NCBI RefSeq assembly: GCF_963576615.1
Contig: NC_088709.1
Location: 75,312,538 to 75,376,537 of the forward strand
Length of the DNA stretch: 64,000 nucleotides
Origin: Watersipora subatra
Lineage: Eukaryota; Bryozoa; Gymnolaemata; Cheilostomatida; Watersiporidae
Direction: 5' to 3'
The notes beneath the pieces were generated by a model, which was given only the letters and a program-made list of their open reading frames with translations, was not told the origin of the DNA and did not search any database. Both the position numbers and the translations under genes were made by a program. How positions within the stretch are numbered: the stretch's first letter is position 1; each line of letters begins with the position of its first letter. Below are positions 7,458-52,919 of this stretch, in pieces.

Positions 7458-7536
7458 ATGGGTAACTCCCTGAACTGCGCCAGTGGTAATGCTCACAAAC
7501 CAAGGGATCACAGTAAAGGAATGATAGATCAGAAAG
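7458..7536 (+). CDS. CARD-LRR gene, exon 1 (acylated N-terminus)
   Basis: The exon encodes 26 codons plus one base and ends at a near-perfect donor, AAAG|GTATGT. Gly2 followed by N-S-L-N fits the myristoyl-transferase consensus, and Cys7 is a candidate palmitoylation site. Its phase-1 end matches the two-base start of the exon at 16225, giving Glu27 across the junction. The 8.7-kb gap makes this join less certain than the later ones, and an intervening exon cannot be excluded. Confidence 0.65.
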
Positions 7537-10500
7537 GTATGTGATCATGCTTCAGCTAGTCACTGTATCCCTGGCTTACTACCCGTGTATTTGCATTGCT
7601 TGAAACAGGACTGTTGTTGTTCCAACCATTTTTGTTTGTCGAAGGCATTATACCAGATTCTAGCATCCTCAACTCGAAGGAAGTGTTTGCTGATGCTATA
7701 GAGTCTGACAACGCCCGGGGCATATCTAGGGTAATTTTAGACTCGTACATGTTTGCGATAGCTCTATGTGGCTCTCGCATCAAAATTATATTCTCACAAA
7801 CTACAGCAGCTGACAAATAAACACTTCTTCCTTTTCCACAAGCATTGAATGTCTCTTAAGGATTGGCATCAGGCATCAGTCAGCGGTGCAGTATAATGAA
7901 CAGCACTGCATCCTGTGCCAACTTGTACTCATTATCTACATAACCATTACTCTTGTAACGTTTGATGACAAAGCAAGACCCGCTGTTGTAAAGTCCCATC
8001 TGCAGAACTGATATCAACCAGCTGCTGTCTTTGAAAACTAACGCTGCCGGGTTGATAATCCTACAACAAGTCTGCGTATCAATAGCCTCTAATTTCTGAC
8101 AAACTTAGAGCAAATGCCCTCTCTTTGTTCTATCCTATTGAGAAAATAAAAGCTTTTGTGTTTCTATATCATGCGGCTTCAGTAGGTTACGTGTAAGTGA
8201 AGTCAGCGTAGTCAGCACTTTTACATACCAACCAATCGTAAAGACAGTCTTGCCCAACTGCAAGTCTTGGAGAAGTACTGTAGCTTATAAGATTGTATGG
8301 CCTCCTCACCTAACTTTTTGTCTGTAGTTTGAGAGTTCACATATGGGTATCTTCGGATTTTTTATGTGTACAAAATATGTACAAAACACCTGTTATTGAA
8401 TGTTATCCTCTACATCCTTTTTTCAGCAGAATGACCGACACAGTAATTACTTTATCGATGATCCGCCACCGAATCGAATAAAACATTTTAGTATACAATT
8501 GGCCATCATAGCCTTCGTGAAGATTACATTATAAATATTTTATGTCACAAACTTGTTGCATGTCATGTCATGTTGCATCTAACAGAATGCACTTATTCAC
8601 TGTCAATCAAGGTAGAAACTGCTGAAATTATTTTACAATTGTGAGGGATGCAAGATTGAAATCTGAAATTTTGAGTGCCTCACACGTACCCCCTAGGTGT
8701 ATCCCCCTACGCAAAGGGAGTCTAAAAGTACCCTAGTTGTAGTTGACACTCAAGTTCAAGGAATAGTAGCAGCGAAAGTCTTTGGACTGTCAGTCAAGAA
8801 TCTGACGGACTTTGTTAAGTATCGAAGCCATAACTCAACCTTTGATATGCATAGATAGCATCAAAACCCTTGTTTGTAGCCTGTTACTCGCGGTATGATG
8901 GCCAATTTGTTAGTCTTCTCCTAGATTGTTTTGTGGTGAAAGTTAATTAACTCGGTAATTGAGTTCTGATAGTATAATAGTTCATACCAATCAATTGAAT
9001 TAAGCCTGCATTTGGAACATTACAAGTTTCTGTGCACCTCTCTGTCTTTATAGCTATGAGTCAGATTACTAGCGTGAACTCATTGGGCAAGTTATTTGTT
9101 AAGTACAAATTACATGGTGCATTCTGGGAACACTAGTGCTATGCAATAAGACTATAGTAACACCTCTTTTTTCATAGTGAGCGGACCAGCAACCTCGTGA
9201 CAAGTAAAACCCTGCAAAATAGAAATTATTTTTTAAAGTGTATGTATGAGCCAAATTTACCAAAACATCAGAATACCTAAACTGCTTTCTCAACATTGTA
9301 TTTATTTTCTAAATAATAAACAAGTAAATTGAAGTTGTCCTGATTGACGTTCAGTTTATATTTCAATTTCAGCTCCAGTATTTTGAGCCAAAGAATGCAC
9401 TTACATATGTAGTTCCGATTTCATCTGGTCTGAATATTCGTTCTTGTGGTTAACTGAGTTCGTTGTGAGAAAGAAATAATATATTTTTAATTGAATTTTA
9501 TGTATATTTATGTATTTTAATTTTTTAATGTTTGTTAATTAATTTTATTTTATTTTCTTTAATGAACTTTTTTACTACAAAGTACTAAAACTGTAAAAGG
9601 TGAGTCACGAAGTAAAGAGGAATTATTGTATCCTGTTGGTGCATGAGCTTTCTGTTGATTTGAAAATCACCACTATTTAAAGAGATATTGCCAATTGTAT
9701 AAATGATATAATTGTATAATGGCAATTTATCTCACATCTGATGAATTTTAGAGTGACTGATACTGGAAGTAAAACACACGGACCTTCCAGTCTTATAATA
9801 AGCTTATATGACCTTCCATGCACACAGGCATTTAGGCAAATAAATGTTTCTAATTACCAAAAACACAATAACATTTTTAATTAAAATATACACAAATATT
9901 AACAAAAGTTTACAAGTATTTTTAACATAATAATATTATTGCGATATATCGAGAATTGTCTATTTGTCATGTCAAATCATCTGATCATTTTCTGAGAATG
10001 GTGAAGCTCTAGTTACATGTTCTGGGAACACTAGAGCTGGGCAAGAAGACTGCACAGCAAATGGGCTCTGATAAAATAAAAGTATTTAGAACTCATTTTG
10101 CCCAAAGTTGCTGTTATTCGTGGAGCTTGGATCGCGTGACACATTCACATATCATAATTTAATCAGGTATCAGCCCATCAGACTATCCGAGCTAGTTGAG
10201 GGTATTAGGTTACCGTTGTCTTGGCCGCTAAGGTAAACACCAGATTTCTCTAAATTAATTCGAAGTCATCTGCTGACACAAAAGGCGACACTAATTACTA
10301 GGTATCACGCCATCATTATGCAAATTAATAGCCATACCAACATATATGCCATACTTTTAGCCTTGATTCAGCTATCAAAGGAAATTTTGTCATAATGACA
10401 ATTTGAATGATAGACATAGGCCTGTTGAGAACATTTGAGCAGATATAACTCTATTATGTTTTGACCATAGCAGTGTTGAACTCCCATGGCAGGAAGCAGC

Positions 10501-13500
10501 TGTGATCGTGAGAAGTCATTTAAAACAATGAATCTATCTAACAGTCGCTGCTGTCAACCCGCTGACAGGGCTCTACATGTCATGTCAGCTTATCTGAGTG
10601 CCTATTTAAATTGCTTAGATTTCTAGTTGAGCACTGCTGAGATTCTCTCTGTGACAGCAGTGAAGCTTGTGGAATATACGCTGCCTCTTTGATCACAAAA
10701 CTGCCCAAACCATGCTTACAATATTAGCGCAAACTGTCATCACATAGAGGCAGTTCCTCGCATGTGATAGATGGCCAAGCATCAGGAATCACTCTATCGA
10801 CATATGTCAGTGGTAAACAGACAAGACTTTGGTGATCGTCTATAATAACAATATTCACACTATCACAAACCCACTTGGGGTTTCATCAATGAATAGTCCG
10901 AGGTATAGCATTCTCATTATACAATGTGGCCGCTGAACTGATGAAATACTAGTCTCGCAGCAACTGTCATAAAAGAAAATATAGATAGAGCAATCCGCAG
11001 CGGCCGGATCATCATCACCAGAGTGACGAACATTGCACAGGCAGTCGTGGGTGCTCGCCAGACCACCGGGAAAGTTTTCGATGGCTGCAATATGCCCCAA
11101 CGTATCCGCGTTGCCTCGACGATGTCATCGATTTATGGTGCGTATAGCTGACGAACAATCACCGAGAGCACAACTCCAACATATGGCGATATAGTGTATA
11201 CCAGCCTTCCACTTATACCAGCCTTCCACTCTCACCACTTATAAGCAGTTCTTGGCATATAATAGATGGCTAAGCCTCAGGAATTGGCTGGCATAGCCTA
11301 ATACCAGTCACTCCAGACAGAGTGTAGCGTATGAAAATACAGTGTTCATGATTGGGCTAATAATCTCACCAGTAGCTCTCTACTGAGTTCAGAGAATCAA
11401 GCAGAGCTTATCTTGCACGTTGTAACCTATTGTTGAGGTCAGCACATTATTTTTGTAGATTTGCATAATACATCTTTTCAATCCAGAGAGCTTGCAAGCC
11501 AAATCATTTGGTTTTTGTCAGCGTGCTTCAGCCACAGGGCTTGGCAGCATAACTACGCTAATTAGTTTTAATTGAAGTAAATATTGAATAATCATATTGA
11601 TTAGAAATCGCCTCTTGGAAAGCAACCTGAATGCTGTCGCTGTATTGGCAAGGGTATAATTTCTCTCGGTATAGCCAGGAGTTAAGGAGTGGCAATGTGT
11701 GCTGATGTCTCACCCTGACATGCTGCTAAAGGCATCATTATGACTTCAAAGAGTATACAGGCTGAGCAAGCATGTTGATATTTTTTATTACGGATTCCCA
11801 TGAAAACACCATATAGTAGCTCCTATGTTGATCATATAGTGGCCCACCAAAGTGTCGAAGGCTATTTTCTACCATCTATAAAATTATCGCATTAGCATGA
11901 TTGTTATTTTTAGTGTGTTTTTAAAATGCACAAAGCTCACTCACCATGAAAAGAATCAACCAATCAGATAAGAGCGTGTGCATTTTGGTACTAATGCGAG
12001 CATTGTGGTAAAATATCAGTTTGTGTAGCATCCACTCCATTTAGATTTGAGAATATAGAGGTCAACAAAAGGGCCGATATCTTCACATTTTAAACTGGCC
12101 ATCAGCCATCAGCGTTATTGCCCATTGAATATTGATTCCTTTTTCCTTTGTTTGATTCTCTTACGTTTTGACTTTTGTTAAAGCCAAGTTAGCGCTCCCA
12201 CTCACCTCCACAGGTGTAGACATGTGTTGAGCAAATGGGCCTCCACTCAATAGCTTCATTAGCAGACGTGCGCTTTTTCTACTGACACCTCGTAGAAATT
12301 GTTTGCACGCTTTTGTTCGCAAACAATAGTAAATTTTAACTTCGGCACAAAAGATTGCGTCGGTCTAGATGGATTTGTCAGGCTCTAACATAGCTCAACT
12401 GATTGTTAGTTATCATCATGCTGAACCTGGTCTTTCTGAACCGTCTCTAAGGAGCAAGTTCTTGTAGGTAGATGACTAGTATAGCAAGAAGTTGCTACTA
12501 TTTAGCAGTAAAAATGCATTTTTTGACAAAAGTTCATTATAAGCTCGGTTCTCAACCGTATTTTATTTCAAAAGTCTCTTCTGTTTAAATCCTAAAACAT
12601 TTGTTTGTTAATATTCACGTATATCGTTTTAATTTGATCCAACATATTTTGAGGTTGTTCGAGATCCAATTTTGTTCGCCATTCAGGGAGGAAAAAGACT
12701 AAAATCTTTTGTCGGAACTAGTTTGTTTTTATATCTAAAACATTTCATAACCAAGGTTAGATTGTCTATTAGCTCTGAATGCAGAAATATATGACTTTTC
12801 CGCCAGTGCTGACAACTGATGCCAGTAATCTATCTAATGGCTGCTGAAACCAATAACCTCATTGGATAAGTCTCCAAGAGCCGACTTTTATTTTAAATAT
12901 TTCACTGAGAACAAACTGGCTACACTAGCTCACGTTTGGTCCTCGCTGTGTAGTGGTCTCAAATCATCGTAACATGTCCTGCAATCAATACAGCTGCCAA
13001 TGAAGTCTAGGAAAATTTAGCCAAAGTTCTACATCTCTGTCGAGCCAAACAGAAATCCTATTATCCTTTTAGAAAGGCAGGAGAAAAAGGATTACGTAAG
13101 GCTAGCTTCTATCATAGCAACGGTTCACTATCAATGACCGGCCTCTTTCTAAAATTAGAAAAGCCAATCGCTATTCGCAGTACAGAGACCTTTTCAATTA
13201 GCAGCGTCTGTCATTTCACTATAGAAACACATCTTTCTAAACCATCACCACTCTATTCGGTGTGTTAGCAATTAAACAGCAATCAAAATAGCGAACATTC
13301 TCTCCTAAAAATCTGATGCAGTCGAGGACTAAGTAAAAACTGTCTATTTCTACTGTGACAGAACTAACTAATAAATGTCAGGTTTCCTAGAATTAAAGTG
13401 AGGGGAGGCGGTGGGCGTCTCAACCGGCTTCTCATCAGCGACAAGTCAGCTGGTACAAGTGACCCTACAAGCTGACAGTAGCTGGTAATAAGTACATTTG

Positions 13501-16500
13501 ATTGCTCAGCTCCGGTGCTCTGACAAGCAGGGTGTCTGTGTGTACATCTCGCAAGCTCGCATTACATTTATTAGCTAAAAACAGCAATAACAGACGGTAC
13601 ACTCCTATAACATTATATCTCTTTTGTTGATCCAGCCGAGTCTGTCTTTTTCAGATAGCAAAAAATGGAGGTATCTTTAGTTCTTCACTAGTTAATTACA
13701 TCATTTGGGTTGTTATGTAACGTTTGATGTGTTTGCATTCCTCTTATAAACAGCGATTAATTGAGAAGTAAGGATACTCAAAATGAAATTGTACCCATCT
13801 ATTTATTAGAGGTCACGTTTGCATTGGATAGAGGACAGGAAATGAGTTACGGTTTGTTATTCCAAACTCGGTTTGAATAACTACAATAAGTGCTTGAATT
13901 AATTCCGTGTTCAATTGGTGCAATCTGCACTGTTTTATTTTGGCCAGTGATAAAAGCAGCCTTGCTCACATCCCTACCAAATTCTCAGCGCTCTATTATA
14001 GCCGTGTTTATGCGTATATATATTAATAGTTTATACCGTGTATAGGAAAGAATCAAAGCTTTTTATTGCGCCATGTAAAGGAAAAATAGGCTACGGCAGT
14101 TCAACAATGGAATAAACAGTTTTCAAGGATGAATCAGTGGGTGACTACCAGAGAAGGAATGGTGAATTGCTTCATTGATACTCCAGCAAAATCAATTTAT
14201 CACTTTTTGGCATCAAGAATTCTCATTATTTTGAAATAATCAAACTACGCAACTCCATGTTTTACCGATTTTGCCTGAGTTAGTCATCAATTGAGAATAT
14301 GGCTTCTCTGCATCCATGTTTGCCCAGTAACTGCTAGTTTTCAGTCTAGCGAGGGTACTGCCCTTTGCACTCACAAGGCTTCATGTTGAGTAAATGACTC
14401 TTATGTTTGTATCGGCTATTCATTGAACATCAGCTAAGCATGACTCTGTCAAACGACACTTCCATTAACCCGTGACGGTAGACCTTCATGCATGGCTCTG
14501 GTAATATCATCACCTACAATCACCGTGTGTTAGATCTGTACCAGCAATTTAGAGGACAGATCCATGAAAAATGTAAAAGTTGATTTGGACGAGGACAATT
14601 ACTGCATTCCAACTGGATTCCCCAGTTGTTTCACAAAGCCATCAAGCCTTTGAAATTATGTCAAGAGTGTTGACCCCTTCAACTATTTGCTATAAATAAC
14701 CTGTGAACTTATGCTAAGGTGACTGTGAAGAACCGGTACTATGATATTTTATATAGAAAGCTTTTACAAGAAGCTGGTAACTTTAACCCTTTGAACCCTG
14801 GCCGGCCATGTGTATCAGTATGTCTGGGCAATTTGTCCAATGATAGGAAGTTTTGAAACTTTTATTAAATATATCTAAATATGCTCAGAATACAATGATA
14901 TTTGGTAAAACACTGGTAAAAAGTCTAGCAACACGCAGCAAATGCCAACAAATAGAGAAAAAATGTTTCATAGTTCTTCAAGCTAAAACCATAAAAATTC
15001 GTAGGATTTTAAAAACCTCTACAAGTCTTTACAGTAGCATCATATCCATCGAGCGGGCATTCATCATCATTCTATGACTCAAAATAGTCTACAAAATTAT
15101 GGTTAGTATCGTATAATTCTTCATCTGCATCACAATCATTCATGACATACCAACAAACGAGTCGTAAATTTTTTCACGAAATCGTCTCAGTCAAATTCTT
15201 ATTATAGGGAAGAAAGTAGATAACTATGTTTAAAATGGATGTAAAATGGATGTAAAATGGAGAAAATGTATTTTCATTCCATGAATTAATTTAATTGATT
15301 TACGCTGTTGCTTAGAAACAGCATTTGTAAACAGAGCCATGTGGATGCCAGTATTCCGGCCATTAGGGTGTCCGACACACTCTGTGCAATGCCGGAAAAC
15401 TGGCCGTCAGGGTTCAAAGGGCTAGAGAGAACGTAATTGACTTTCAAATTTTTCTCCGCCTTTTAGCGATGATTTGCTAACGTAGTTTTGATAAGAATAA
15501 AAATGATGATAATACAAAGGCAACTATCTAAAGCTAGCAAATAGAGGCTCAGCTTTCCAATTTGTCTACCAAAACCAGGTGCAGTTAAGGTTTTCGTCTT
15601 ATGAGCAGGTGACAGAAATGCGTTGCATTCGGGTAACAAACCCTGTTTCCGTGTCACAGTTAATCTGTTAATCAGTTAATCCACGAGTCTGTATCAGATG
15701 CAAGATGAAAACGGCAAAAACCCAAGAGTCAAGCGAGTTTTGTTAGTCACCCATTTTCATCAACTGGTTCATGCTTGCGAAATGTCGCACTTGAGAATGA
15801 TGCGCAAGAAAACGCCTCGAAGGCTTTTCCATTTTAAATATTTTCTATGCTTTAGTCATCCCTAAGACGAAAGCATACTGCTATGACTTCTGGCGTAGAA
15901 TTCCAAATCTTTTTTAACAAAGCGCCTGCATTAATCCGCAACATGCAAATGTCAATGGAAACACTTATTGCATGGTAACTCAATGTGCACATAATTCCAA
16001 AGTCACATCATTCGCACAATGAAAGGTAGTAGTTGTTAGTCTAATGATGCGGCATGATGAGGGTTAATCTATCCATTTCTACTATCTAGTAGTTTTGTAC
16101 TAGTTTTGTCTAGTACTAGTAGTTTTGTCTATGAGTACTACTAATAGTGAGCACCTGCATGTCACTTAACTTGCTCATCTTGTCAAACGCTAATAATGTC
16201 AGGCCTCACGCTATCTCTTTCCAGAAAGCTTCGTGGACTACATGAGTCCAAATGACCCTGCGAATAGCTCGGTAGCCCCTGATCTTCTTCCTATTGAAGC
16301 TGCACACTTCGCTAAAGAAAGACGCGTGTCAAGAAAAGACAGCGCTGTTGGCAGCCTTCCTAACTCTCCGAAATCATCAAATAACAATGAAAGATCTGAT
16401 GCATTCGCTTTCGAAAAAGCTTTTAAACTTTCACAGCTGCAGTCTCCAAACCCACCACTGGTTAGATTTACCCACATCTTATCTGCATTCTTATGGAACT

Positions 16501-19500
16501 CATAATCAGTAGTTTGCTTTCTACAAAATAACATGAACTCTAGAGTCGCTGGTCACCACAACCTGTTTTCAACTGTCAGTTCATAAGAAATCAAATTATG
16601 GAAATACTTAATTAACATGAAGATTTCATTGACCTAAAACCCTAAACATCCTTAGTTTAGGGTGGGGTGCCTATTTATAATAGTTTGGTTTTTTAGTTTT
16701 GTGGCAACAAATGTTCAGAATCTCTTATAATGTTCTGACCTGACATGACAATTATACAGAGATGATGTTGGACTGTTTCTCGCTAGTCTGTCTATTGTTG
16801 CCAAAGCATACGGCTAATAAAGCCATGACACCGCTGTAGAATGTCTCAGAAGAGCACCATTCACAACTACCAATATCAATTGATGAGAATTGCTTATCCG
16901 AGTATATCTGCCTCTATTATAATTTAAAACAATGGTTGCTCTTGTGGAGTGAATCTAATATAGGCCCATTAATAGCCTGTTTGTCAAAGCATCAGAATTT
17001 ACTGACAATGTTTGTGCATTTTGTATTATGCAAATGTGGGAAGAAAGTTATTCACATGACAGAGGCTCGATGAATCAAAGCATTAAAGCTTTAACCCAGG
17101 CATTCCTATTGAAACTCTCCTCTCTAAATTCCTTTTATCTTATTGCCAGCTGAACAACTGTCAACTATTTTACAAATGTCGCAGACAACCTTGACCCATC
17201 AACGTATCAATTGCACTCTGTAAAGGCTGTGAATAAAGATAGCAACTTCTGCTGCAGGTTACCATTCCTCTACCTTCCACAGCCAATGGTACGGAGGATG
17301 GCTCCACATCACCAAAACCTCCAAACAACAGTGAAAACTGCTATGTCAATATTAAACCATTTTCCTTCCCTCTGCCTCCGCTACCTGACAATGACAATCT
17401 TAACAACAGCCACTGCTCAAGTAAGGCCTTATTTATTAATTATTTTGATTTTCATTATTATTATTATTATGTGTTTCTATACTATTACAACTTCTATTAC
17501 TACACTATTATTACTACTGTTTCTACTATTACTACTACTATTACTATTATTACTATTAATTTGGAGCTGAAACTAAAAATGAAAACATGTGATAGCTTTT
17601 TAGTTGTTTTTGGAAATTTTAAATAAGTTGTCACTTTAATAAGTACATTATGATTATATCTAAAACTGATTATATGACTCTTATGAAGCAAAAAAGATTT
17701 ATTGCTGCCAGTTAATTGACACCACTGTAAAATGTCATCTGATGACCTGACCAACTCATATAAAATTGTCATTGCTGTGCAGACTTGTTGAATCTGGTAA
17801 TAGTATAAGCAAGACAGCCAGATGATAGCACAGGTAAGACAGTCAGGTGTTTTTGGAAAGTATCAGTGAGCCTATAAGAACTTTTTGAAGAAAGTTCCGA
17901 CCTGATATGATAATTTGATAACACAATGCTAGGTGCTATCAGTCTCATGTGAGACCATGAGTTGCTTTAAATTTGGAAACATGCTCTTACTTAACTTTCG
18001 CGCATGGCTTGATCGATATACTCTTCTTTCACAGTCAGCTCTGGAGGAGCCATATCTCAGGAGGAAGTAACTCCTCCTTCAACTAGACGAAGATCCGAGC
18101 GCCTCTCCGCTCTTGAGGAACTAGACAACATAGAATCACCGAAATTGCCTCCTCGGCCGAGTCGTCTCACCTTGTGCAGCATGAGCTCTGCTTCTCAGGT
18201 CAGGGTTGAACACATGCCTTATCAGCCACAGTCAGGCTTCAATTGTGTTTAGGGCTAAATAATACGTACTTTCATTAAAAAGCAAGCCTAGGACATCTTG
18301 CCTCCTCATTAGCAGAGCTGTGTTATCAGAATCCTGATATTCTACGAATAACAGAACACCAACTTACGTCCGTATAGAACTGTTTGTGGCCCATAACATG
18401 GGGATAGTTCAAGCGTTAGGTTCTAAGGTTGTTGAAATTATGAGCTTTCCACAATCTTCAATTCTATGTCTACTTTATTTCTTAATGTTTTGCTGCCATC
18501 ATAGTCCTTCTTGCTTTGCTTAGTAATTGTTAGCATTCACCTTTTTTTCAGCTGCCGGTCATGTCTACTCCTCTACAGATCGCCGATGACAACGTCTCTG
18601 AAGAATCGGCTATCAAATCTCCCCCTCCTCGACAGGTCGTATTCACAGACCTTTTTGCTGACTCTTTGGGCAGTGAGGGGGAGACACCAGAGCCGTATGA
18701 CTTTTCAATGACAGCTTCAAACACCTCTAAGCCTGAGGTTAACACTTCAGTCATCAAGAAACGTCCAAAGAAACCTCCCAGGAATTATTCCTATAGGGCT
18801 GCTACCCTACCAAAGCGAATATCCCATACAACTGAGGTAGGGGGGGCTCTCAGTGACGCCCGAAAGGAAGCAAATTTGATCCATGGTTATAAAGTGCAAC
18901 TCATTCTTTATTGTTCAAACTCTACATTCTCTAGTCTGTCACACAACGTTCTAACGCTATCCTACTCGCTACCGACTACAGTGTGGTATCTCATTTGGTT
19001 AACAGGAAGTTATGGAACTATGGGACGAGGTGAGAAAAGCTCTCTCACTTGAGAGGCTAAAAGACACAACGTCCTTACACATAAGCGAGGAAGAGGATGA
19101 CGAGGATGAGATATACCAGAATTTATATGCGGCGAGGATGAGGTGAGAGGTCTACAATAACTGACTTCCTGTTTTTGTAGCTTTCCATATCTGTTAATAT
19201 TTATTGTTGATCGTCATAGATCAGTTTATTGCGAAGTGCTTCTAATTCTCTTTATGCTAGTTCACTCTATGGGAAATATTTCAACTCTAAATCACTCGCT
19301 ACTAAAGCATCTTATTTAAACTCGGATTTATTCTTATTCCCCTTCAATTATAATCAGCAAATCAGCAAATCCTCATAGCTGAGCTAAAGCGATTTGTTGT
19401 AGTCCATTGGCCAGCAACTTATTTTAATTTAATTTCAGTTTAACTAAAGTTATCCAATAACCAAATTTCCTTGTGCATATGCTGCTTCAAGTAGAAACCT

Positions 19501-22500
19501 AAGGAAGCAGGGCAATCACAGGCTAATGTTTTATTCTCATTATCAGAGAGGCAAATAGCAAGCGGGTGACTTTTTCCCCAACTTGTGTTGGAATTCTATC
19601 ATAGTTTAGTTACCAAGCTGTTTAAAGTACAGTACACTAGTATTGCAGATTTCCCTAGAATTTGAAGCAGAAGTATAAAAAGATAATGTTACCATAATTA
19701 GGATTGACAGCAGGAAAACGTGATTCATTACATAAATTCATGAAATGCTTGTAAGCATGATATCAGAGTTGAGAAGGTTCCATTAAGACTGACAAGCCAG
19801 CAAGTGTCAGCTGACGGGCCGAATATATAAGAAGCTGCTTAAATGATTTATATTTGCATCTGGTGGTCACATAGATTTCCTCTTGTACTTGACAGAGGAC
19901 AAACATCCTTTATCTGGCCAAAGTTACAAAACACCAGTCTGGTTTTGCACTCGGAATCAGCCCAGTTTTTAAATATTGTTCCAGTAAATTCCTTGTTTTT
20001 CATCTATAGAATATGCGATGAGATAATGTCAATTTGTTTATTCAGCATGCTCGTACCATTTCATAAAGTTTGACATGCATTTAATATTTGAAAAGCAAAA
20101 GATGGAAAAAAATGAGAAAAGTGTAGCAGCCTAAAGTCAGTATTTATCCATCTATAGCCTGTACTACATATAAACAATTAACTCAGTTATAATGTTTTCA
20201 GGTCGTGGCAAATAATGTGTCTTGCCCAAGATGTCCTCTTGGAGAGACTCAAGCCTGATAGAGTGTGGGAGTGCTTCCTGTCAGAGTCGCTAGTTAGCGA
20301 GGTGGAATACGAGACACTCGGAGTGGCTGCCTGTGATCAGAAGATGTCCAATCAGCTTATCATAGATCGAATTCTTGAGCACGGAGACGGGTGGTTTGAC
20401 AGGCTTCGTGAGATCCTGCGCATACACGAGGATCAACGACAAATCAGCAATCTGCTAGAAGCGCTCAATGATGTCTTTATCATAGGAGCGAAGGCTAACA
20501 AATGGACTTTCTCCCTCACAACGAAACATTGTACCGTAAGACAGGCTCGACCGAGCAGCATTTCTGATCAGCCAGATTTGATTGGAGACACAGCTGAGGG
20601 TTTGCAGCCAATCGTTTGGCTGGAGGTTTACGATGAAAACTTTGGCAATACAAGTTGTACTGCACTAGGAGAAGTCTTGCGCAAGTACAATGTCATCTCT
20701 CAGCTCAACTTGGGCAAGAACAGACTCACTCCGAAGGGCATTTCTAAGCTATGTCCAGGGATCCAAGGCAATCGATGTCTTGAAAAGTTGAATCTGAGGC
20801 TAAATCCTCTAGAAAATGAGGGTCTGGCAATACTTTCCAAAGCTCTGGAAAGAAATGGGTCCATCAAGGAACTCATTCTATGCCATACCCAGTTGCAGGT
20901 GTGTTGAGTATTATTTATTAGCAGTGTTAGTTTTATCATAGAGGCCACAGGCTAGTTTTCTTGGCGAAACCACGGGCTAATTTCATAGTAAAAACCACAG
21001 ACTAGTTTTATGGTAGCGACCACGGGCTAATTTTAAGGTAGAGACCTCCAGTTAAATTTATGGTAGAGACCTCAGGCTAATTTTATGGTAGAGACCACAA
21101 GCTAATTTTATGGATTTCCAATTTAGCAGCAGCTCATTCAATACTTGTTAGCTTGCATTTTGTAGTCATTTTCTTCAAGATGCTTTGAGGATTAGAAAGT
21201 TATTTTATCGGCTAGCAGGAAGTGGTGCGGCTTTTCTAAAACTTCCATTGCTTGCTAGAAAAATATTGCAGGTGTTTTTAGAAAAGCCATTAGTGGGAAA
21301 AACCAGAGCCATTCTTTCAAAATTTATTTACATTGAAATATTACCAGCTTTAGGTCTTCAGAACTAAATGGTTTTATATAAAGTGAGGCTACAATGAATA
21401 AAAACTGTGACATAACACCTACTGTACTATAGTAACACAATACTTACTGGCTCCTCAATGTGGGACCCACTAAAACAAAGCCTAGCCAATGCAAATTCAT
21501 ACAGCCTTTTGCTGCCAAGGCTGTTTGCTTCTCTTGTACTCTTATGAGTAAATGTCTTAGCAGTGTAGCACATCACTTTTACGTCTATGGAAAAGCCATC
21601 ATAGCTGGTCATTGGTTTGGTTGTGTCCTTGCTATTATGATGACGCACAGACGTCTAACACAATTGATATTGAGTATTATTAAAATATTATGTTTGTTCA
21701 GCATATAAGCAGCTTTTGTTAAAGGCTTCATGATACTGGTAACTTATTGAGGATAGGTCATTTTAAAGGATTTGTCTACTGCCACGTAGAAATGGTTACA
21801 GACATCAAAAAGTAGTTAATATATCTAACATGGGGATTACGCCAGAGACCCCTGTTTACGGTTCAGTAGATAGACAGGAAGCTGCACTGTAGCTAACTAA
21901 AGCTTCCAACTGTCTCATCTGACTGCTCGCGTCCAAGCTTGTGTAATAAAATATTTGTTTGCTATTGCAAGCAATTCATCAACTCCGCTACAATTACATT
22001 CTTCAAGTCATTTGTAACTCTCGGCTTCTTTATAAACAACTGCCATTGTGAGTCACGAAATGCTCCACCCGGTGGCACAATGAAAATATTTAACTTTCTT
22101 CCTTCAGGGTTTGTTCAAGCCGTCATTCTAAACTTTCTCTTTCTCTCTGTCATGTTTCTTTGTTTGCACGCTTCACAGTTGATTAGACGGTGAATTTTCA
22201 TTTTTAAAAGTCGGTTCATGTCGGGGTCAAAACTTAATTTTGAGTTATGTACGAGTCAGCTTTTATGAGTCATAGCAGTTAATTGCAGAACACCTGAGAT
22301 TTATTAGTATCCAGTCTCATAGTGAAACTGAAGATTTCTTCCGTTATTCTAACTGCCTCTTTTTGAGCCAAACTCGATATAGTAAAGTTTGTCTGATGTT
22401 CAACTTTGCGTGACCTTCAACTAGCCTGAGTTCATTAGGTCTTAGCTTTAGTACAAACAAATCTTATTTGTTTGTTACTGGTACTTTTGCACTGGTACTT

Positions 22501-23694
22501 TCATTGTGTGTTGTATTACGACACACAATAAAAGTACCAATGCAATTCAACATGGTACATACGCTGCAACTGCTTAGATTGCGCTATTGTTGGTTTTTTA
22601 TCGTTCGGACACTATGGCTACAAATCGTTTCTTTTTTAAAAATAACAACTTCTTTTTAGCAATTGTTCCATTGTAGAAAGAGTTTCATCTTTAGCGCAAT
22701 CAAGTCAGTTGCATTGTTGAGAGTTGGCCTGGCTGCCCACATTTATTATTAGTAGAGTATTGACTAAGAGTAGGAAAAAGGACAACCCTTGGAACAAAGG
22801 TTTCCAAATCATTGGCAGGGCCCCAACCTGTGTATTAACAAAGGAATGAGGTCATCGCTACCAGCTCTCAGCAGCATACTTACCTGAGGCTATCTTACTA
22901 AACTTTTACTAGTTAACATCTTATTTATTATGTTTTGATGTAATCACTGCATAACCAAAGATCTCTTATGGCTGTTTCAGGTCGGGGCGGGTGATTCGTT
23001 AGCCCACATTTTTTCACACAACTCTTCATTGGAAGTGATAGACCTCAGCTATAACGAACTAACGGACGCAGACTGCTCTTGTCTAGCCTCTGGTCTTGAA
23101 CGCAACCAAAGCCTTCTCACCCTCAACCTCCGAGGCAATCAGATTACACATGAAGGCTGTAAACAAATAGTCGCTGCTCTTCGAACAAACATTAGTCTGC
23201 AGGCACTTGACCTGTCCCACAACCAAGTGACTGACAAGGGCCTCTACTACCTATCTGAGATTGTTCATTACTATGACAACTTGCGTGAATTGCACCTCGA
23301 AAGTTGTGGCATCACTCAGGAAGGCTGCGCCATGCTGACAGAAGCTTTGTCGGAGAACCATAGTCTCGCCGCCCTCTACCTCAGCAACAATCCTATAGGA
23401 GACGAGGGGTGCGAGACGCTCGCTGACATGCTTGTCAACAATATAGCATTGCAGACGCTTTACCTTAACCTCTGTTCTATAAATAGAACCGGTCTACATC
23501 GACTGCTGACCGTTATCTCCCATGACAATTTTACGCTGCGGACTCTCGGCGTTTGCAACAACAATATCGAGGTGTACAACGATGACCTTGTCCAGGATGG
23601 CTTCGAGGCTGTTGACATCAGAAATGCGCTAAACCGAGCCTTAGAGCATAATAAAGAGCGCAAGATTTTGACTTGGGGAAAAGCTCTTAGTTAG
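7458..23694 (+). CDS. CARD-LRR adaptor-like protein with predicted N-myristoylated start (8 exons, 824 aa)
   Basis: Joined coding exons: 7458-7536, 16225-16460, 17258-17420, 18035-18198, 18552-18836, 19006-19142, 20202-20898 and 22981-23694 (stop TAG). They total 2475 nt and every junction keeps phase. Residues 1-9 (MGNSLNCAS) fit an N-myristoylation site followed by a palmitoylatable Cys7. Residues 27-340 look disordered and Pro/Ser-rich, with YVNI (134-137), YQNL (346-349), LPPRPSR (197-203) and RPKKPPR (285-291), resembling Grb2-SH2 and SH3/CIN85-type ligands. About 361-448 resembles a CARD. From about 500 to the end run roughly ten 28-residue LRRs of the ribonuclease-inhibitor/NLR type with LxxLxLxxN cores. 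No NACHT ATPase motif is present. The inferred role is a membrane-tethered signalling or innate-immune scaffold. The start has a strong Kozak context (A at -3, G at +4) and an in-frame stop at 7413. I know no named orthologue with this order. Confidence 0.8.
7609..7820 (+). CDS. Possible alternative terminal exon of the CARD-LRR gene (short isoform)
   Basis: After exon 1, a 72-nt intron (7537-7608, GT...CAG) would join in phase to an open frame that ends at a TAA at 7818-7820, giving a 96-residue protein with the same acylated start. The 70 downstream codons match no family I recognise and contain two hydrophobic stretches. The opposite strand is also open here, so chance is a real alternative. 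The exon cannot be internal, because its only good donor (AGG|GTAATT, about 7731) leaves the wrong phase for 16225. Confidence 0.25.
10830..11175 (-). repeat. Dispersed repeat family copy A
   Basis: On the minus strand this copy shares ordered blocks with 37335-37685 and 46535-46865: CTCTCGGYGATTRTT, a GTTGGG..ATTGCAGC stretch, AGTTGCTGCGRGACTARTAT, GGGTTTGTGATRGT and a closing ACGATCACCAAAG. The 81-codon open frame across it (10855-11100) is not conserved in the other copies, so the element is probably non-coding. No clear terminal repeats or target duplications were found. Confidence 0.6.
16225..16460 (+). CDS. CARD-LRR gene, exon 2
   Basis: The exon follows TCTCTTTCCAG and encodes residues 27-105, ending in phase 0 at CTG|GTTAGA. 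The segment is polar, with basophilic phosphosite-like stretches (RRVSRKDS) and Ser-Pro dipeptides. The donor departs from consensus but gives the phase needed for exon 3. The opposite-strand open frame (16238-16534) is a shadow. Confidence 0.7.
17258..17420 (+). CDS. CARD-LRR gene, exon 3
   Basis: The exon lies between CTGCTGCAG and TCAA|GTAAGG and encodes residues 106-159 in phase 0, ending in phase 1. It is Pro/Asn/Ser-rich and carries CYVNI (133-137), a YxN motif of the kind bound by the Grb2 SH2 domain when phosphorylated, followed by the proline run FPLPPLP. Confidence 0.75.
17453..17562 (+). repeat. Trinucleotide microsatellite (TAT/TAC)n
   Basis: An imperfect run of TAT, TAC and CTA triplets begins about 30 bases after exon 3 in the following intron. 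The long Leu-rich open frame that crosses it (17211-17570) is a product of this repeat. Confidence 0.8.
18035..18198 (+). CDS. CARD-LRR gene, exon 4
   Basis: The exon follows CTTCTTTCACAG and ends TCTCAG|GTCAGG. It encodes residues 160-214 and carries RRRSERLS and the class II SH3-type motif PPRPSR (PxxPxR, 198-203). Both ends are strong splice consensus and the phase matches both neighbours. Confidence 0.8.
18552..18836 (+). CDS. CARD-LRR gene, exon 5
   Basis: The exon follows CTTTTTTTCAG and ends CTGAG|GTAGGG. It encodes residues 215-309 in phase 0. Features are SPPPR, an acidic stretch around EGETPEPYDF and RPKKPPR (285-291), which fits both PxxPxR and the PxxxPR pattern bound by CIN85/CD2AP-type SH3 domains. 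Reading past the donor gives unrelated sequence up to a stop near 19050. Confidence 0.8.
19006..19142 (+). CDS. CARD-LRR gene, exon 6
   Basis: The exon follows GGTTAACAG and ends ATGAG|GTGAGA, encoding residues 310-355. A probable helix (EVMELWDEVRKALSLERL) is followed by an acidic cluster that leads into IYQNL (345-349), a second YxN tyrosine that also fits the YxxPhi pattern. It ends in phase 2 and matches exon 7. Confidence 0.8.
20202..20898 (+). CDS. CARD-LRR gene, exon 7 (CARD and first LRRs)
   Basis: The exon follows ATGTTTTCAG and ends TTGCAG|GTGTGT, encoding residues 355-587. Residues 361-448 follow the CARD pattern: LLxxLKPDxVxxxFLSExLVSExEYE, then an amphipathic helix, then IIDRILEHGDGWFDRLREIL and a last helix ending near LLEAL. 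A linker of about 50 residues, including the Ser/Asp-rich part, leads to the first LRRs (SQLNLGKNRL, EKLNLRLNPL). The last LRR is cut at HTQLQ and continues in exon 8. Confidence 0.85.
20944..21113 (+). repeat. 25-bp tandem repeat, about 7 copies
   Basis: Units resemble CCACGGGCTAATTTTATGGTAGAGA, with several substitutions per copy. The array lies 45 bases downstream of exon 7 in the CARD-LRR gene's last intron. Its divergence suggests an old array. Confidence 0.7.
22487..22545. repeat. Hairpin-forming inverted repeat
   Basis: Arms of 25 bases (22487-22511 and 22521-22545) pair with two mismatches around a 9-base loop; the arm core is TGGTACTTT.ATTGTGTGT. A smaller inverted repeat (ACAAACAAAT/ATTTGTTTGT) lies just upstream. 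Both are in the last intron of the CARD-LRR gene and may be remnants of a small foldback element. Confidence 0.55.
22981..23694 (+). CDS. CARD-LRR gene, exon 8 (LRRs and C-terminus)
   Basis: The exon follows GGCTGTTTCAG and encodes residues 588-824 to a TAG. It carries consecutive 28-residue repeats with cores such as VIDLSYNELTD, TLNLRGNQITH, ALDLSHNQVTD, ELHLESCGITQ, ALYLSNNPIGD and TLYLNLCSINR. It ends with an LRR-cap-like tail that contains a charged helix and KILTWGKALS. The repeat register runs straight across the exon 7/8 junction, which supports the join. No canonical AATAAA was found close downstream; a TATAAA variant is at about 23766. Confidence 0.9.
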   Translation, partial: VGAGDSLAHIFSHNSSLEVIDLSYNELTDADCSCLASGLERNQSLLTLNLRGNQITHEGCKQIVAALRTNISLQALDLSHNQVTDKGLYYLSEIVHYYDNLRELHLESCGITQEGCAMLTEALSENHSLAALYLSNNPIGDEGCETLADMLVNNIALQTLYLNLCSINRTGLHRLLTVISHDNFTLRTLGVCNNNIEVYNDDLVQDGFEAVDIRNALNRALEHNKERKILTWGKALS

Positions 23695-39345: not shown

Positions 39346-39420
39346 ATGGTCAGCTGGACTGACATAACATGGATGGATTGGCAAACAACACAACAGCGTC
39401 TAGCGGCAGCACTTTTTTAG
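39346..39420 (+). promoter_or_regulatory. Upstream open reading frame overlapping the kinase start
   Basis: The acceptor TTTACTTTACTTTACAG at 39345 is followed at once by ATG, which opens a 24-codon frame ending at TAG 39418-39420. It overlaps the kinase start codon (39369) in another frame. The first ATG has A at -3 but lies at the exon edge, so its use depends on the upstream exon. If retained in mRNA it would reduce kinase translation through leaky scanning. This is inference from position and frame only. Confidence 0.4.
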
Positions 39421-40820
39421 AGAATCAGTACTTGCTGCCATTGGTCAGCACTCTCGGAGCTTTGGTCGTAATTCTTTCAACAGTTCTCATCATTATTTAC
39501 TGTCGACGGAATTTTAGAGCACACCGACTCGCAGCGACTGACAGCATGAATGTCAAGGTCGTTAATGCTAAACCTAATCCGTCGAGCCTTCGAGCAATGG
39601 AGTCTGGTGACTTAAATGGACTATCAAACAGGGGCATGAGCAACTCGATAACCAATGAAGAAAAAACTTTATCATTGGGGCGACTAAATGAACAGCCTCA
39701 AAAGTCTGTAACTCATGCTCCAGTTCCTGGGTTAAAAGATATATCACTCTTGCAGAACCAGTCCCCAACGAGAGAATCACTTGGTATAATGATGGGAGGA
39801 GGCGATTACTTGAACGATCCGAGTCCAGCTATCCGAGTTGTTCCACCTCCACCAGCTGCGAGGTGTCCATCTCCACCCACACCGTCCCTTGATGATGAGC
39901 TCGATTCATTCAATCCTTTGGAAGAGTCGACTAAGTCCAATGACAGTATGTCTACTCCAAATTTGCCGAGGATCCGACCACGGAGCAAGGGTTTGCACAA
40001 TACCCCTTTGCTGATCGACAGCAAGGAGACAACTCTGCGGCGTGCCACCGGACTCTTTCGGTCAGACACCAAAGCCTATGCATTCTACACAAAGACTATA
40101 ACAAACTATGAGATGAACAGAAACCAGCTGCAGTCTAACAAACTGATTGGTAAAGGCCACTTCGGCTGCGTATATTCTGGCGTAGCGAGCAAGTTACCGA
40201 ATACGAAACAACGTAAAACAAAAGTCGGTATAAAAACATTAAAAAGTTCTGCACCAGACAGCGAAAAGCAGGAGTTTCTCTTTGAGCTGGAGATTATGAA
40301 GCTTGTCACGTCTCTGAACCACCCGAACATCATCAAACTTCTAGGCTGTGTTACTAAAACTCAGCCCTACCTTATAGTCCTCGAGCTTATGACCAATGGT
40401 AACCTTCAAAAGTTCCTACGCGATACTAAGACTAAAGATGTCTACTACAATCTCCATGGTAAGAGTGACAGTTTAAACGAACAGCATTTATTAAAATTTG
40501 CTCTTGATATCGCTCGAGGAATGGACGGTATCGCAGATCTCCAACTACTCCATCGTGACCTCGCCTGCCGGAATATTTTAGTAGACGAACATTTAACCTG
40601 CAAAGTGGCTGACTTCGGTTTTGCTAAGGATGTTTTAAACAAGCCGGAATACAAAAGCAAGTCGGTGTTTCAGCGACCAAGACCTACCAGATGGCTTCCT
40701 CCGGAGTCTCTGTTCACATTCAAGCACTGCATTCAGAGCGATGTCTGGTCATATGGGGTCGTGTTATGGGAAATCGTGACTCTTGGTAATCTTCCATACC
40801 CCCACCTTAGCACGCGGGAG
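39369..40820 (+). CDS. Tyrosine kinase gene, exon 1
   Basis: The exon encodes residues 1-484: membrane helix, juxtamembrane region and most of the kinase domain up to the alpha-F/G part (LPYPHLSTREV). It ends in phase 0 at GGGAG|GTGAGT. Almost the whole kinase N-lobe and catalytic loop in one exon is unusual for a receptor kinase. A second acceptor-like site, GCACTTTTTTAG at 39420, lies inside the coding sequence. Confidence 0.9.
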
Positions 40821-43800
40821 GTGAGTAGGTTGGAGCAGTCATGAGATTAATGAAAAGGGTGTGAGATGCAGTCAGTCAAGAGTAAATAATGTGGCCAATG
40901 TGTCCTGTTTCATCTTTAACAAAGCAAACTAGATCATGAGATTGTCAGAGTAACCCAGACGTCTACCATATGTCTGTATGCTTGTAATCCGAGATAGTTC
41001 GAATGTCTGATGCTAGGTCAATGTTAGTAAAAGGAATGAATTCAAAATTTTGGAAAAAAACTTTCTCGTGTAGTCAATTTCAGTTGTAAACATTACATCC
41101 GCAATCAAGTTTTGTCGATTATAATCTTGAAACATCCTGGCAGTCAGATCACCTCAAACATTAAAAACAATCTCAAATGATAGAAAAATACTGATATTTT
41201 CTGATAAAATCTACTAAAATTTTGTATAAGTTCGTCTTTGAAGCACCTAAACTACAGGCGCTCCTACAACTACAGGCGCTCCTACAACTACAGGCGCTCC
41301 TACAACTACAGGCGCTCCTACAACTACAGGCGCTCCTACAACTACAGGCGCTCCTACAACTACAGGCGCTCCTACAACTACAGGCGCTCCTACAACTACA
41401 GGCGCTCCTACAACTACAGGCGCTCCTACAACTACAGGCGCTCCTACAACTACAGGCGCTCCTACAACTACAGGCGCTCCTACAACTACAGGCGCTCCTA
41501 CAACTACAGGCGCTCCTACAACGTAAATAATCCATTCCAAGAACATTTACACTATAGGGGTTTTACATTATACAAGCAGTAAAATAGGCCTACATGTAAA
41601 TTGCCTAATCCGTTCCAAGATCTTTCCAAACTTACTCTTAGGCCAAACGAAAAGGAAAAACTTGACTTTTTAATTTGTGAGCTCTATCGTAATTGCAGTA
41701 TTATTGGTTTGCATTGACAACTTTTCTCCTTTTTCTGATCAATTTCACTGGTTTTATAGATCATGATTGCAGTAATTTTACAATAAGTCGATGGAGAGCG
41801 CACATATTCGACGCTCATTTACAACGATTTGCTTAATTTTTCTAAACAGCTAAGTCTATTCTGCAAAGGAAAACTAATGGCAAATATTTTATACGCCTGC
41901 AGTAAAACAGAACAAACAATGTTTTTACTATGAAAAAGCGGTACTACTTGTCCATTGTCATCTGTATTCAGAGGTCAAGGTCAGGATAAAAGATAACTTT
42001 CAACGATTCTCCTACTTGTAATAGTGTAACACGGGGTCCCAACCGATCCCCTTCAAGCATTTATGAGCAATTGCACAGCTACCTATTCTCTGGTTTGTCG
42101 GCACATCCTCCGATCTATCATGACTAACTAGAATTTCATGGATGGAAGTTGTATATCGTATATAATAGGTCATAGGCTATACGCACGCCATTTTTTTGCT
42201 CACAAACATGGTGAGATATATTACCATTCAAGTTGAATTTGAGAACTCACCCTACTTGACACTTTACGTTATATAGAATCCTTTACATAGTACAAAGCAA
42301 AAACTTGACACAAATTCCTTATGTTATCTGGAATTTACATTATAGGACCGGCTACTGTATAAGCAACATTTTAATGTTTTACTTTAAGCCGCAGAGCAGA
42401 AGTGTATCTGGTGTTTACCACATGTCACGGTTGGTTCAGCTCTTCTAGTCTCTGTATTCTGTAGAAGATTATGTCAGGACACACAATGGCCATCCTTGCT
42501 GTTAGACTTGTAGCTACTCGAGGGCTTTCATATATTCCACATTTCAGTTGTTTCTTAGTTTTATTTCAGAAAAGCCATTTGTGACTCATACATATAGGTA
42601 TTTGGCTCCCTCTCTCTAATTACTGTTATTTTTAAAAATGCAAAAATTTGGTATGCAGATTAAACCATGATTTTTTCTGGTAGTGGAAGCCATATAACAC
42701 GAATTGTGACAGTTACAAAATTTAAATTATATCTCGTTTCTGATGCAGTTAACTCCTACTCAATTCTATAATTAGTCATGACAATGACGCATGCTATTAG
42801 TACCAGCAAGTAGGCTATCATACAAGGTTTAAAGAAGTGATGAAATGTCTAGCAGGTGTCCCTTGGCACGTGGCTCTGTATAGGATGATATCAACTTTAA
42901 GCAAAGCTTACTGTGCTTGCTTCAGCACTAGCCTGAGGTCCATATCGACTACAGCCTGGAATAAAAGCTGCTATGGTCTCCTAGTCTATCAATAGTAGTT
43001 ACAAATTTCAAAACTTGTAAGGTTACAACTTGAAGTTGTTTCCTCATGAATAATTTCAGTTTAAATTTATTTTTTATTATTCAAAACGTTTAGGAAGTTA
43101 AAGGTTTTTTTTGATTAATTTTATAAAGAATTCTTACACAAAAGGTAGGCTATATATGTTTTTGTTTTATTCATATTTATTTTATAATTCGTTTTATATC
43201 AGCCGTATTTGATTTATGAAGTTTGTTTTGACTTATTAAGTGTTTATACTTCTTAGTTTTTAAATTATTATAGATGTTACTGCCTTGGGGTTGTTTAGGT
43301 TGCAGGTTCAAACCTTGTCAGTGGAGTTTATTTTTCATGACAATTCATTGGATGGTGGTCATTCATAAGCTATGATCCTTTTACAATGATGTCCAACATA
43401 AGCTATGATCCTTTTACAATGATGTCCAAATAGCTGCTGCAAAAATATAACTCAACTCAGGTAATTTGATTCAGACATAAAGCCAGACTCCGGTAAATGT
43501 AACAGGTTTATATACTTGTGTATATAACAGAATGCTAGGTAACCATCAACATCTCCTGTAATCTTAAAGGACAGAGTGTTGACTGGCTGAATAAAATTGT
43601 GTGAAGCCATTGATCAGGAGGCTATAGTAACGAGTCTATTACTCTTATTAGGAATGCTGCAAAAAATTATTACTTTAGGTAATGGGCTACTGTGCCACGC
43701 ATGTTTACCGTTAGATAGTACCGTCTGCTCAGATATGTTTTATAATCATTAGGCTATAAGCTCCATCAGTTTCGAGTAAAATTCTTATTGAAAGAACACT

Positions 43801-48664: not shown

Positions 48665-50848
48665 TGAGCGAACAACTCTGAACTAGAGCTGATGTTACCA
48701 TGTACTATAAGGCAAGCTGCAAGGGCTCAGGAAGTGAGCTCACAATGCAAGAATGCATCGGGTTCTCATAGAAGGAGAGTCTGCTACAAAAAATATGATG
48801 TTTTAGCATCAGTAGAAAGGTCATTGCCAAAAATTACAATCTTGCTGTTTTTTGTTTTTTTTTAAATCTTTGGTGCTAAAGCTATTATGCTTTTCATAAG
48901 ACACACGACGTACTTAACCATAATTTTAGCAAATACTGTAAGATTTTTAGGAGTTGTCTGCTCTTTGGAACATACCAAGCTTCCCACAGTCTCTTTAGCT
49001 AACTTTTTATGATACAATGTCATTTATATTAGGGCTGGGCCTTCATAGTAACGCAAAGAGAACATAATAATAGTATTACTTAATGCTTTAACATAACTTT
49101 ATTAAGTAAGCTTACATTATAATAATGCTTTTGTTTTTAAAATGATGCATATGGTAGACGATACCAAGGTACTCACAGATTAAATTACTTTAAAACACTC
49201 ATATTTTTGTAAATAATTTTTTCTAAATATATTTTAGCAACTCGCTAATGGTGGTCTGTAAAAGATTCTATTTTGTAGAATACTGTACTGTCTGATATGA
49301 AGAGTTGTCTTGGTTCACACAAAACTGATGAAAGGTGTTTATGAACTTTGATGTAAAATACAGGTTGATGCAAATGCAATTTAGTTAACTTTATCAAGTT
49401 TTAGCTTCTTTTGATCAACATGAATTATGAGTGGGTCAGACAGTGCATATATGTATAAGAATAGTCATATCTTATTTTCTGCCTGAGAATGAATACTAAA
49501 CAATTCAAGTGTTTTGGAATGTATTTAGATTTTTTTTCTTTGTTTCAAGAATTCAGTTTTTCTAAGTTTATTCTAGCAGACAAAAACTCCAAGAGTTTAA
49601 AACGGAACACTGTGAAAAAATGAGTTGTCAATCAATATATTTGAAAAATACCATTGCGCTTAACTCTCCTGTCTATCTCACCTTTCAAACTGCGTTTACA
49701 ACCTGCACAATGTGTCGGGAGTAAGTAACCTGGTAAATATGGAGCGTATGGGTTCCAATCGCGTATCTCTCAAAGATGTAAATTAATTACAGCATTTCTA
49801 ACCTTGATGGAGATACGAGGAGGCTCATTCATTGAGTTGAGAGGGTCTATTGACGGTAGATGAACAAATCTGTACTGGTACTTTATTAAAAGGCATAGCC
49901 TGAAATCTTTATAAGTAGTTTAACTTTTACAGGCTACGATGTCCGAACCGTTGACTCATAGCAAACTTGTCCGCTATAGGCTAAAAATATTTTTATTTTA
50001 CTCGTGAAATCGACATGTAGAAGATAACTCCCAAATTTATGGGCTCAGTTTATGGGCTATTTAAAAGCTCATTCAGTGAAAAACATTTTTTTATATTTCA
50101 TATGTGTGCCCTTCTGAGGTATGCATAGGAATTATGCTGCTCTATGAGATATGTATTGGAATTCTGCAAGGACCCATGAACATAGCCTAGTTGCAACAAA
50201 ATACATAAATTAAAAAAAATGATAGTTATGGTGGCCTTCATCTATGTACACGCTTAGCTAGACTTGCTACAATTAGATTCTCAAAAAGAATCCTGTACAG
50301 CTTGTGTTATGTTAACTTCCCGAAGGCTAAAAAGGTAAACGATTTGCACATGTTAGGAGTGTTAACCAGATTATTTAGGTAGGACAAGTGTGATAGTTGT
50401 CTAGATATCTGCTCTGCTAGATGTCCCAGTAGGACCAGTTTTATACTGATGCGAGATCACAGCTGAGCCAAAATAAAGTCACTTTGTGAACAGTTAATTG
50501 TCTCCACCTGAACAGGCATCTCTGGTTCACACAAAGAAGCTTTCCAGTTCGCTTAATCTCTTTATCCCGTTATTACACAATCAACTACAGAGTACACTTA
50601 TGCAAATACTCTATTCATTTCTATAACGCAATATAAAAAGTGAAATGACACTAAACACCTGTTATGGTATACGTTCAGGTTGGTCTCCTTCAGGTTTTTA
50701 AATAAACTATTTTACTTTAACAGAATAAACATTTGAAAATATAAAATACTTATTAACATGACCAAGGTTATCTATTTCCAGCATATATATAGTCATAAAT
50801 GTCTTTTTCAAAGCCGTAAGAGTAGTTTCTGAGTTAGTCTTACCAACT
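48665..50848. other. 3' flank of the kinase gene
   Basis: AT-rich DNA that probably includes the kinase 3' untranslated region. No exon, SINE or array of note is visible. Confidence 0.4.
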
Positions 50849-51475
50849 AGCTCTTGGCACTACCCGAGATACCTGATGACAAGTATCTACAAGTATTATA
50901 AATAATCGCACTACCTGAGATACCTGATGACAAGTATCTACAAGTATTATAAATAATGGCACTACCTGAGATACCTGATGACAAGTATCTACAAGTATTA
51001 TAAATAATGGCACTATCCGAGATACCTGATGACAAGTATCTACAAGTATTATAAATAATGGCACTACCTGAGATACCTGATGACAAGTATCTACAAGTAT
51101 TATAAATAAAGGCACTACCTGAGATACCTGATGACAAGTATCTACAAGTATTATAAATAATCGCACTACCCGAGATACCTGATGACAAGTATCTACAAGT
51201 ATTATAAATAATGGCACTACCCGAGATACCTGATGACAAGTATCTACAAGTATTATAAATAATGGCACTACCCGAGATACCTGATGACAAGTATCTACAA
51301 GTATTATAAATAATCGCACTACCTGAGATACCCGATGACAAGTATCTACAAGTATTATAAATAATGGCACTACCCGAGATACCCGATGACAAGTATCTAC
51401 AAGTATTATAAATAATCGCACTACCTGAGATACCTGATGACAAGTATCTACAAGTATTATAAATAATGGCACCAG
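50849..51475 (+). repeat. 51-bp satellite-like array, about 12 copies
   Basis: The unit starts GCACTACCYGAGATACCTGA, continues TGACAAGTATCTACAAGTAT and ends TATAAATAATG. Copies differ at only a few positions (CCTGAG/CCCGAG, ATCGCAC/ATGGCAC). Because 51 is divisible by three, two frames stay open on the minus strand (50840-51499), giving 17-residue protein repeats. Without splice or promoter support they are treated as artefacts. Confidence 0.9.
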
Positions 51476-51651
51476 CTGATTAATTGATTTGTTCCTCACT
51501 TATCCAACCTGCCAATGCCGAAAAAAGTAAATCTGGCTGTGATGAAAATAAAATCAATAAAAGAATACAACGGGAATTCAACAAAATTAAAAATAAAGTC
51601 TCATGATAAAAATATGTTCTAAATATATGTAATGTTTTAACAGGCACCAAC

Positions 51652-52731: not shown

Positions 52732-52919
52732 TGATTTAAGAAGACAATAGAAGTAGGTGATGTTCAGTTTTATGAAAGAATACATGAAATTTTTTTGTTA
52801 AAATCTTTATCTCAAAAAAATAATTAAGATTTTTTGTATAACATTCTCTATTTGATAACTTCCTTTAAAACTGAGAACAAGCTATATGTATGCTATACAT
52901 GACGTAAAATGCTATTTGT

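Follow-up and report, generated by a model that had tools for sequence, protein, structure and literature searches.

In the genome of the bryozoan Watersipora subatra, a stretch of 64,000 nucleotides (hereafter, the window) contains on its + strand an eight-exon gene whose predicted protein appears to unite the two ends of a NOD-type receptor, CARD for signalling and LRR for sensing, without the ATP-driven middle part. In NLRs, it is the NACHT ATPase that converts LRR sensing into CARD clustering. The co-occurrence of a CARD and LRRs in one protein that lacks NACHT is supported by the sequence, the CARD itself being probable, and the protein is most likely a domain-shuffled CARD scaffold. The gene and its domains comprise the following features:

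Exon 1, 7458-7536, + strand: start codon and MGNSLNC, a possible N-myristoylation/palmitoylation signal; weakest exon by codon score.
Exon 2, 16225-16460, + strand: Ser/Pro-rich, residues 27-105; its donor is the weakest splice site of the gene.
Exon 3, 17258-17420, + strand: Pro-rich, with YVNI.
Exon 4, 18035-18198, + strand: contains PKLPPRPSR.
Exon 5, 18552-18836, + strand: Ser/Pro-rich, with KKRPKKPPR.
Exon 6, 19006-19142, + strand: acidic stretch, with YQNL; strong donor (GAG/GTGAGA, the slash marking the exon end).
Exon 7, 20202-20898, + strand: CARD-like domain, linker of ~50 residues and first four LRRs, all in one exon.
Exon 8, 22981-23694, + strand: the last six or seven LRRs, then the C-terminal tail and the stop codon.
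Probable CARD, 20206-20475, + strand: residues 357-446; the profile alignment spans 357-430 and stops short of the last helix, which is placed by analogy.
LRRs 1-4, 20614-20898, + strand: residues 493-587; repeat limits set by eye.

At the level of sequence, the open spliced frame of exons 1-8 is well established. Once joined, they give a frame of 2475 nt (824 residues) without internal stop, and every intron is of the GT-AG type. This agrees with the preliminary description of eight + strand exons (7458-23694) that join into one protein, although the "perfect phase" then reported is partly a matter of construction, as the exon boundaries were picked so as to preserve the frame. The codon score, for which exons 7 and 8 (themselves among those scored) and the 39-kb kinase exon served as training set, is positive in the chosen frame for all eight exons; out of 2000 segments of presumed non-coding sequence, none scored as high as exons 2-8 in frame, and 4% equalled or exceeded exon 1. 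As for splicing, a generic matrix ranks 13 of the 14 sites at the 95th percentile or higher among the window's + strand GT (3705) or AG (4051) sites, the exception being the exon 2 donor at the 92nd percentile. Since an 8.7-kb first intron sets exon 1 apart from the remaining exons, the start is the least certain part of the gene.

Regarding the rest of the window, the exon at 39363-40841 has a tyrosine kinase domain (PF07714, E=2.5e-66) and what looks by eye like a membrane-spanning segment; it likely belongs to a receptor tyrosine kinase. Positions 41195-41582 and 50840-52797 correspond, according to the ORF list, to tandem repeats open in several frames.

The junction between exons 6 and 7 is the point at which the locus could be read as split, so that exons 1-6 would form one gene, for a Ser/Pro-rich adaptor, and a second, CARD-LRR gene would begin at Met360 in exon 7. 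Such a reading draws on an in-frame ATG located 13 bases into exon 7, directly ahead of the CARD, and on a stop within a few bases past the exon 6 donor, but that donor ranks at the 99.7th percentile and is in phase with the exon 7 acceptor (95.9th percentile). Besides, neither AATAAA nor ATTAAA occurs between 19143 and 20202, an absence that chance could nonetheless explain. We regard the two-gene reading as quite unlikely; if true, the NACHT-less CARD-LRR core would stay and the N-terminal arm would be lost.

Concerning the CARD, residues 357-446 are a probable, divergent member of this family. Among Pfam families, the best match of the isolated region is CARD_2, below its cut-off (E=0.018, 0.014, 0.015 and 0.085, depending on how the region is cut; best score of 15.8 bits versus a cut-off of 28.2 bits), followed by the unrelated DUF6922 (E=0.037-0.055, on a shorter piece). 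CARD_2 was not reported when the whole protein was scanned with Pfam; PF00619 was reported neither for the protein nor for the isolated region; and the genome searches with PF16739 and PF00619 did not select exon 7. In other words, no curated CARD model scores above its cut-off here, such a cut-off being a detection threshold rather than a structural definition. A phmmer search against the PDB returned four weak non-CARD matches and no CARD.

A home-made profile was also built from 22 CARDs: 20 known CARD sequences (for RIG-I CARD1 and the greater part of RIG-I CARD2 and APAF1, the letters also appear in alignment output) and two encoded by the W. subatra genome itself. With this profile, the isolated region scores 18.9 bits (E=6.5e-8 for one sequence) and the whole protein 14.5 bits (E=1.5e-6; residues 357-430, with the last helix outside the alignment); the maximum among the 955 scored of 1000 shuffles was 8.5 bits. 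When each of the 22 CARDs was left out in turn, the query obtained 13.9-23.8 bits and the genuine CARDs ranged from 65.1 down to 7.8 bits, the query overlapping the divergent ones (RIG-I CARD2, 19.0; CED-4, 18.1; NOD2, 16.9; MAVS, 7.8 bits). The match is specific for CARD among death folds, in a comparison which is uneven (22 CARDs versus 5-6 sequences per other fold): DED, DD and PYD profiles, made of 6, 5 and 5 sequences, gave the query 1.5, 1.2 and -1.4 bits, respectively, and the best of those 16 DED, DD and PYD sequences reached 8.3 bits against the CARD profile. Likewise, among 995 ORFs of at least 40 residues (from the window and loci L001-L013), the ORF of exon 7 scored 16.9 bits, the ten that rank higher are all from CARD-selected loci, and outside those loci, this gene aside, no ORF exceeded 8.7 bits.

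With respect to subgroups, a profile limited to the five RLR/MAVS CARDs gave a weak 6.8 bits (2 of 946 shuffles were as high), and a profile of the other 17 CARDs gave 12.5 bits (0 of 948 shuffles). Because the RLR/MAVS-only profile is weak, membership of the RLR subgroup is not supported. The eight nearest of the 22 CARDs show 14.9-18.8% pairwise identity and are a mix of NLR and non-NLR proteins. Single-sequence AlphaFold models, whose confidence is too low to be trusted, display six helices for the CARD region alone (pLDDT 41) and a CARD region without six helices for the whole exon 7 (pLDDT 36).

It could be argued that the presumed CARD is another helical domain, and the gene product an RI-type LRR protein with an unassigned N-terminal half. 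The sub-threshold CARD_2 match, the phmmer result, an identity to the nearest known CARDs of at most 18.8% and an unconfident AlphaFold prediction, in which the longer construct is not six-helical, all point in that direction; the multi-CARD profile, with its shuffle, leave-one-out and death-fold controls, together with the six helices in the low-confidence model of the region alone, points in the opposite one and makes this alternative, in our judgement, decidedly improbable. The CARD-like domain recognized by eye at the outset is supported by the 22-CARD profile and its controls but left unconfirmed by Pfam and phmmer.

The C-terminal half of the protein is made of about ten 28-residue RI-type LRRs (about residues 493 to 784, by eye). 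Pfam LRR_6 matches seven stretches (E=1.4e-26) and, among the best 60 of 75 PDB matches, ribonuclease inhibitor comes first, followed by NLRPs, LRRC34 and others, so that the initial count of about ten NLR-type LRRs is borne out as regards RI-type repeats. The domain would be curved and able to bind a partner or ligand. Since the non-NLR proteins RNH1 and LRRC34 also have RI-type LRRs, these repeats alone do not make the protein an NLR.

The CARD and the first LRRs lie within a single uninterrupted exon of 697 bp (exon 7), separated by a linker of ~50 residues. As both are read from this one exon, no intron lies between them in which a NACHT exon could have been missed, and that idea was rejected for this reason. 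No Walker A (P-loop) motif is present in the 824-residue protein; the two that occur in the six frames of the window belong to ORFs 12 and 37 residues long, around 48 and 61 kb, and none of the five NACHT matches of the genome search falls within the window. The earlier claim that no NACHT stands between CARD and LRR is therefore confirmed. In general terms, an NLR combines (i) an N-terminal death-fold domain; (ii) a NACHT ATPase between this effector domain and the LRRs; and (iii) C-terminal RI-type LRRs. Of these, the third was found here (LRR_6; RNH1 and NLRP relatives in the PDB) and the second was not; for the first, there is a CARD profile match (E=6.5e-8) with Pfam below cut-off and ~350 residues preceding it. 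The description of the protein as a "relative of NLRs" does not follow from the data, because RI-type LRRs occur outside NLRs and the nearest CARDs mix NLR and non-NLR proteins.

Searches for further copies covered the 784-Mb assembly (239 contigs), with exons 2-8 searched singly and the best candidates scored. No second copy was found in the genome for exon 7 (E up to 0.001), for the CARD alone (E up to 10), for exons 2-6 (E up to 1; all five matches are this gene's own exons) or for exon 8 (E up to 1e-4; 26 candidates scored). Viral and prokaryote collections yielded no homologues, as expected for an animal gene. Elsewhere in the genome, PF00619 has seven CARD matches, six of them above cut-off and two adjoining on contig C11, which are possible partners of the CARD-LRR protein. 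The same contig (~14536600-14543100) carries an NLR-type NACHT exon (L003, E=5.4e-7) preceded on its strand, at 6.1 and 4.7 kb, by two CARD-like pieces (L021; 14.2 and 10.7 bits, E-values uncorrected for the number of ORFs), and thus a more usual CARD-NACHT gene may coexist there. A profile derived from this gene's LRRs detected no LRR in the 20 kb downstream of that NACHT; around the NACHT match on C9, no LRR (with the same profile) or CARD was found.

Several other loci of this genome contain related domains. Three neighbouring NACHT/AAA-like ATPase exons (L004-L006) are located at C8:61845607-61978076, and two of them, L004 and L006, are much alike by eye, perhaps representing a local tandem family. 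At L007 (C4:16234779-16235024 and flanks), a CARD exon (PF00619, E=1.1e-16) whose best PDB relative is APAF1 precedes, on the same strand, an exon that combines a Ras-family GTPase domain (PF00071, E=1.4e-34) with what looks by eye like coiled-coil sequence; this is a possible CARD-GTPase gene. Downstream of another CARD exon (L009; C1:3916611-3916781 and flanks), and on its strand, lies an exon for a Death domain (PF00531, E=2.3e-10), an order reminiscent of RAIDD.

The genomic data bear on the possibility that the gene is a degenerate NLR, that is to say, a descendant of a CARD-NACHT-LRR gene that has lost its ATPase and now perhaps acts as a decoy blocking CARD assembly. Its outer domains are ordered as in NLRCs, and the possible CARD-NACHT gene on C11 lends some weight to such a descent; nevertheless, CARD and LRR are fused within one exon by a ~50-residue linker, the reading frame is intact, the CARDs nearest by identity are the above-mentioned mix of NLR and non-NLR proteins, and the genome searches with exons 2-8 found no second copy. 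Overall, we deem this origin unlikely.

The N-terminal arm of ~350 residues (14% Ser, 11% Pro), which corresponds to the Pro/Ser-rich stretch previously noted ahead of the CARD-like domain, is probably disordered. Through its PxxP and YxN motifs it might attract proteins with SH3 or SH2 domains; we estimate, informally, that such motifs are expected by chance in a stretch of this length and composition. The protein contains two YxN motifs and a pLxIS-like LHIS (residue 333), which were not relied on. At the start, MGNSLNC fits the N-myristoylation consensus (Gly2 context). Among seven candidate first exons, only one, namely exon 1, bears a myristoylation motif, and 7 of 30 shuffled sequences yielded at least one candidate first exon with such a motif. 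The acylated start proposed initially is therefore a candidate, and the case for a membrane tether, built on a single short exon whose motif arises in 7 of 30 shuffles as well, is weak; membrane anchoring of the CARD-LRR protein is only plausible.

Taking these elements together, our tentative first choice, to which we give slightly less than an even chance, is a single-copy animal gene derived from domain shuffling and encoding a NACHT-less CARD-LRR intracellular scaffold, the arm of which is possibly acylated. In this scaffold, (i) domain shuffling would have brought together the Ser/Pro-rich arm, a divergent CARD and an RI-type LRR domain without the NACHT ATPase; (ii) the LRR domain would bind its partner or ligand; (iii) the protein would cluster through membrane anchoring or multivalent partners, bringing the CARDs together; (iv) the gathered CARDs would seed or cap a CARD assembly formed with one of the animal's own CARD caspases or adaptors; and (v) such assembly would proceed without an ATP switch, as membrane clustering could replace ATP-driven oligomerisation. 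The anatomy suggests a scaffold function, in which the LRR binds, the CARD assembles homotypically, and the arm provides SH3-type motifs and a possible acyl anchor; a decoy role would be compatible as well. A more far-reaching version, according to which the protein represents a class of membrane-tethered CARD-LRR receptors or scaffolds that nucleate CARD assemblies by membrane clustering, replacing the ATP-driven NACHT wheel, seems to us rather doubtful.

If this reading is true, a protein occurring in nature that keeps the two ends of the receptor but lacks the ATPase would reveal what the latter is needed for, and would add to the possible CARD nucleators of animals poor in NLRs. Both the combination of LRR and death fold without NACHT (PIDD1) and the reshuffling of death-fold domains in invertebrates are already known. 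Such reshuffling is documented for amphioxus (PMC2575513) and lophotrochozoan RLRs (PMC8998645), and molluscs other than the pearl oyster are described as typically having 5-20 NACHT genes (PMC9646362). What may be new is the order, CARD then LRR without NACHT: among the literature matches listed, as far as their accessible text goes and without an animal protein database search, a CARD-LRR protein lacking NACHT is not described.

Compared with known systems, RNH1 and LRRC34 have RI-type LRRs in common with this protein and are not known to carry a CARD. The CARDs of RIG-I, MDA5 and MAVS (CARD_2) constitute the best Pfam match of the region, and its GWF motif is also found in RIG-I CARD1, but the CARD_2 match is below cut-off and the RLR-only profile is weak; furthermore, RLRs carry helicase and RNA-binding parts, which were not seen in the Pfam scan of the protein. 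PIDD1, an LRR plus death domain protein without NACHT, resembles it in uniting a death-fold domain and LRRs in one scaffold without ATPase; PIDD1 differs in having a C-terminal death domain, ZU5/UPA domains and another LRR type. Finally, the NLRC receptors (NOD1, NOD2 and NLRC4; CARD-NACHT-LRR) share with it a CARD ahead of the LRRs and C-terminal repeats of the RI type, whereas the bryozoan protein has no NACHT in between, possesses an extra Ser/Pro-rich arm of 350 residues, and encodes its CARD and first LRRs in one exon.
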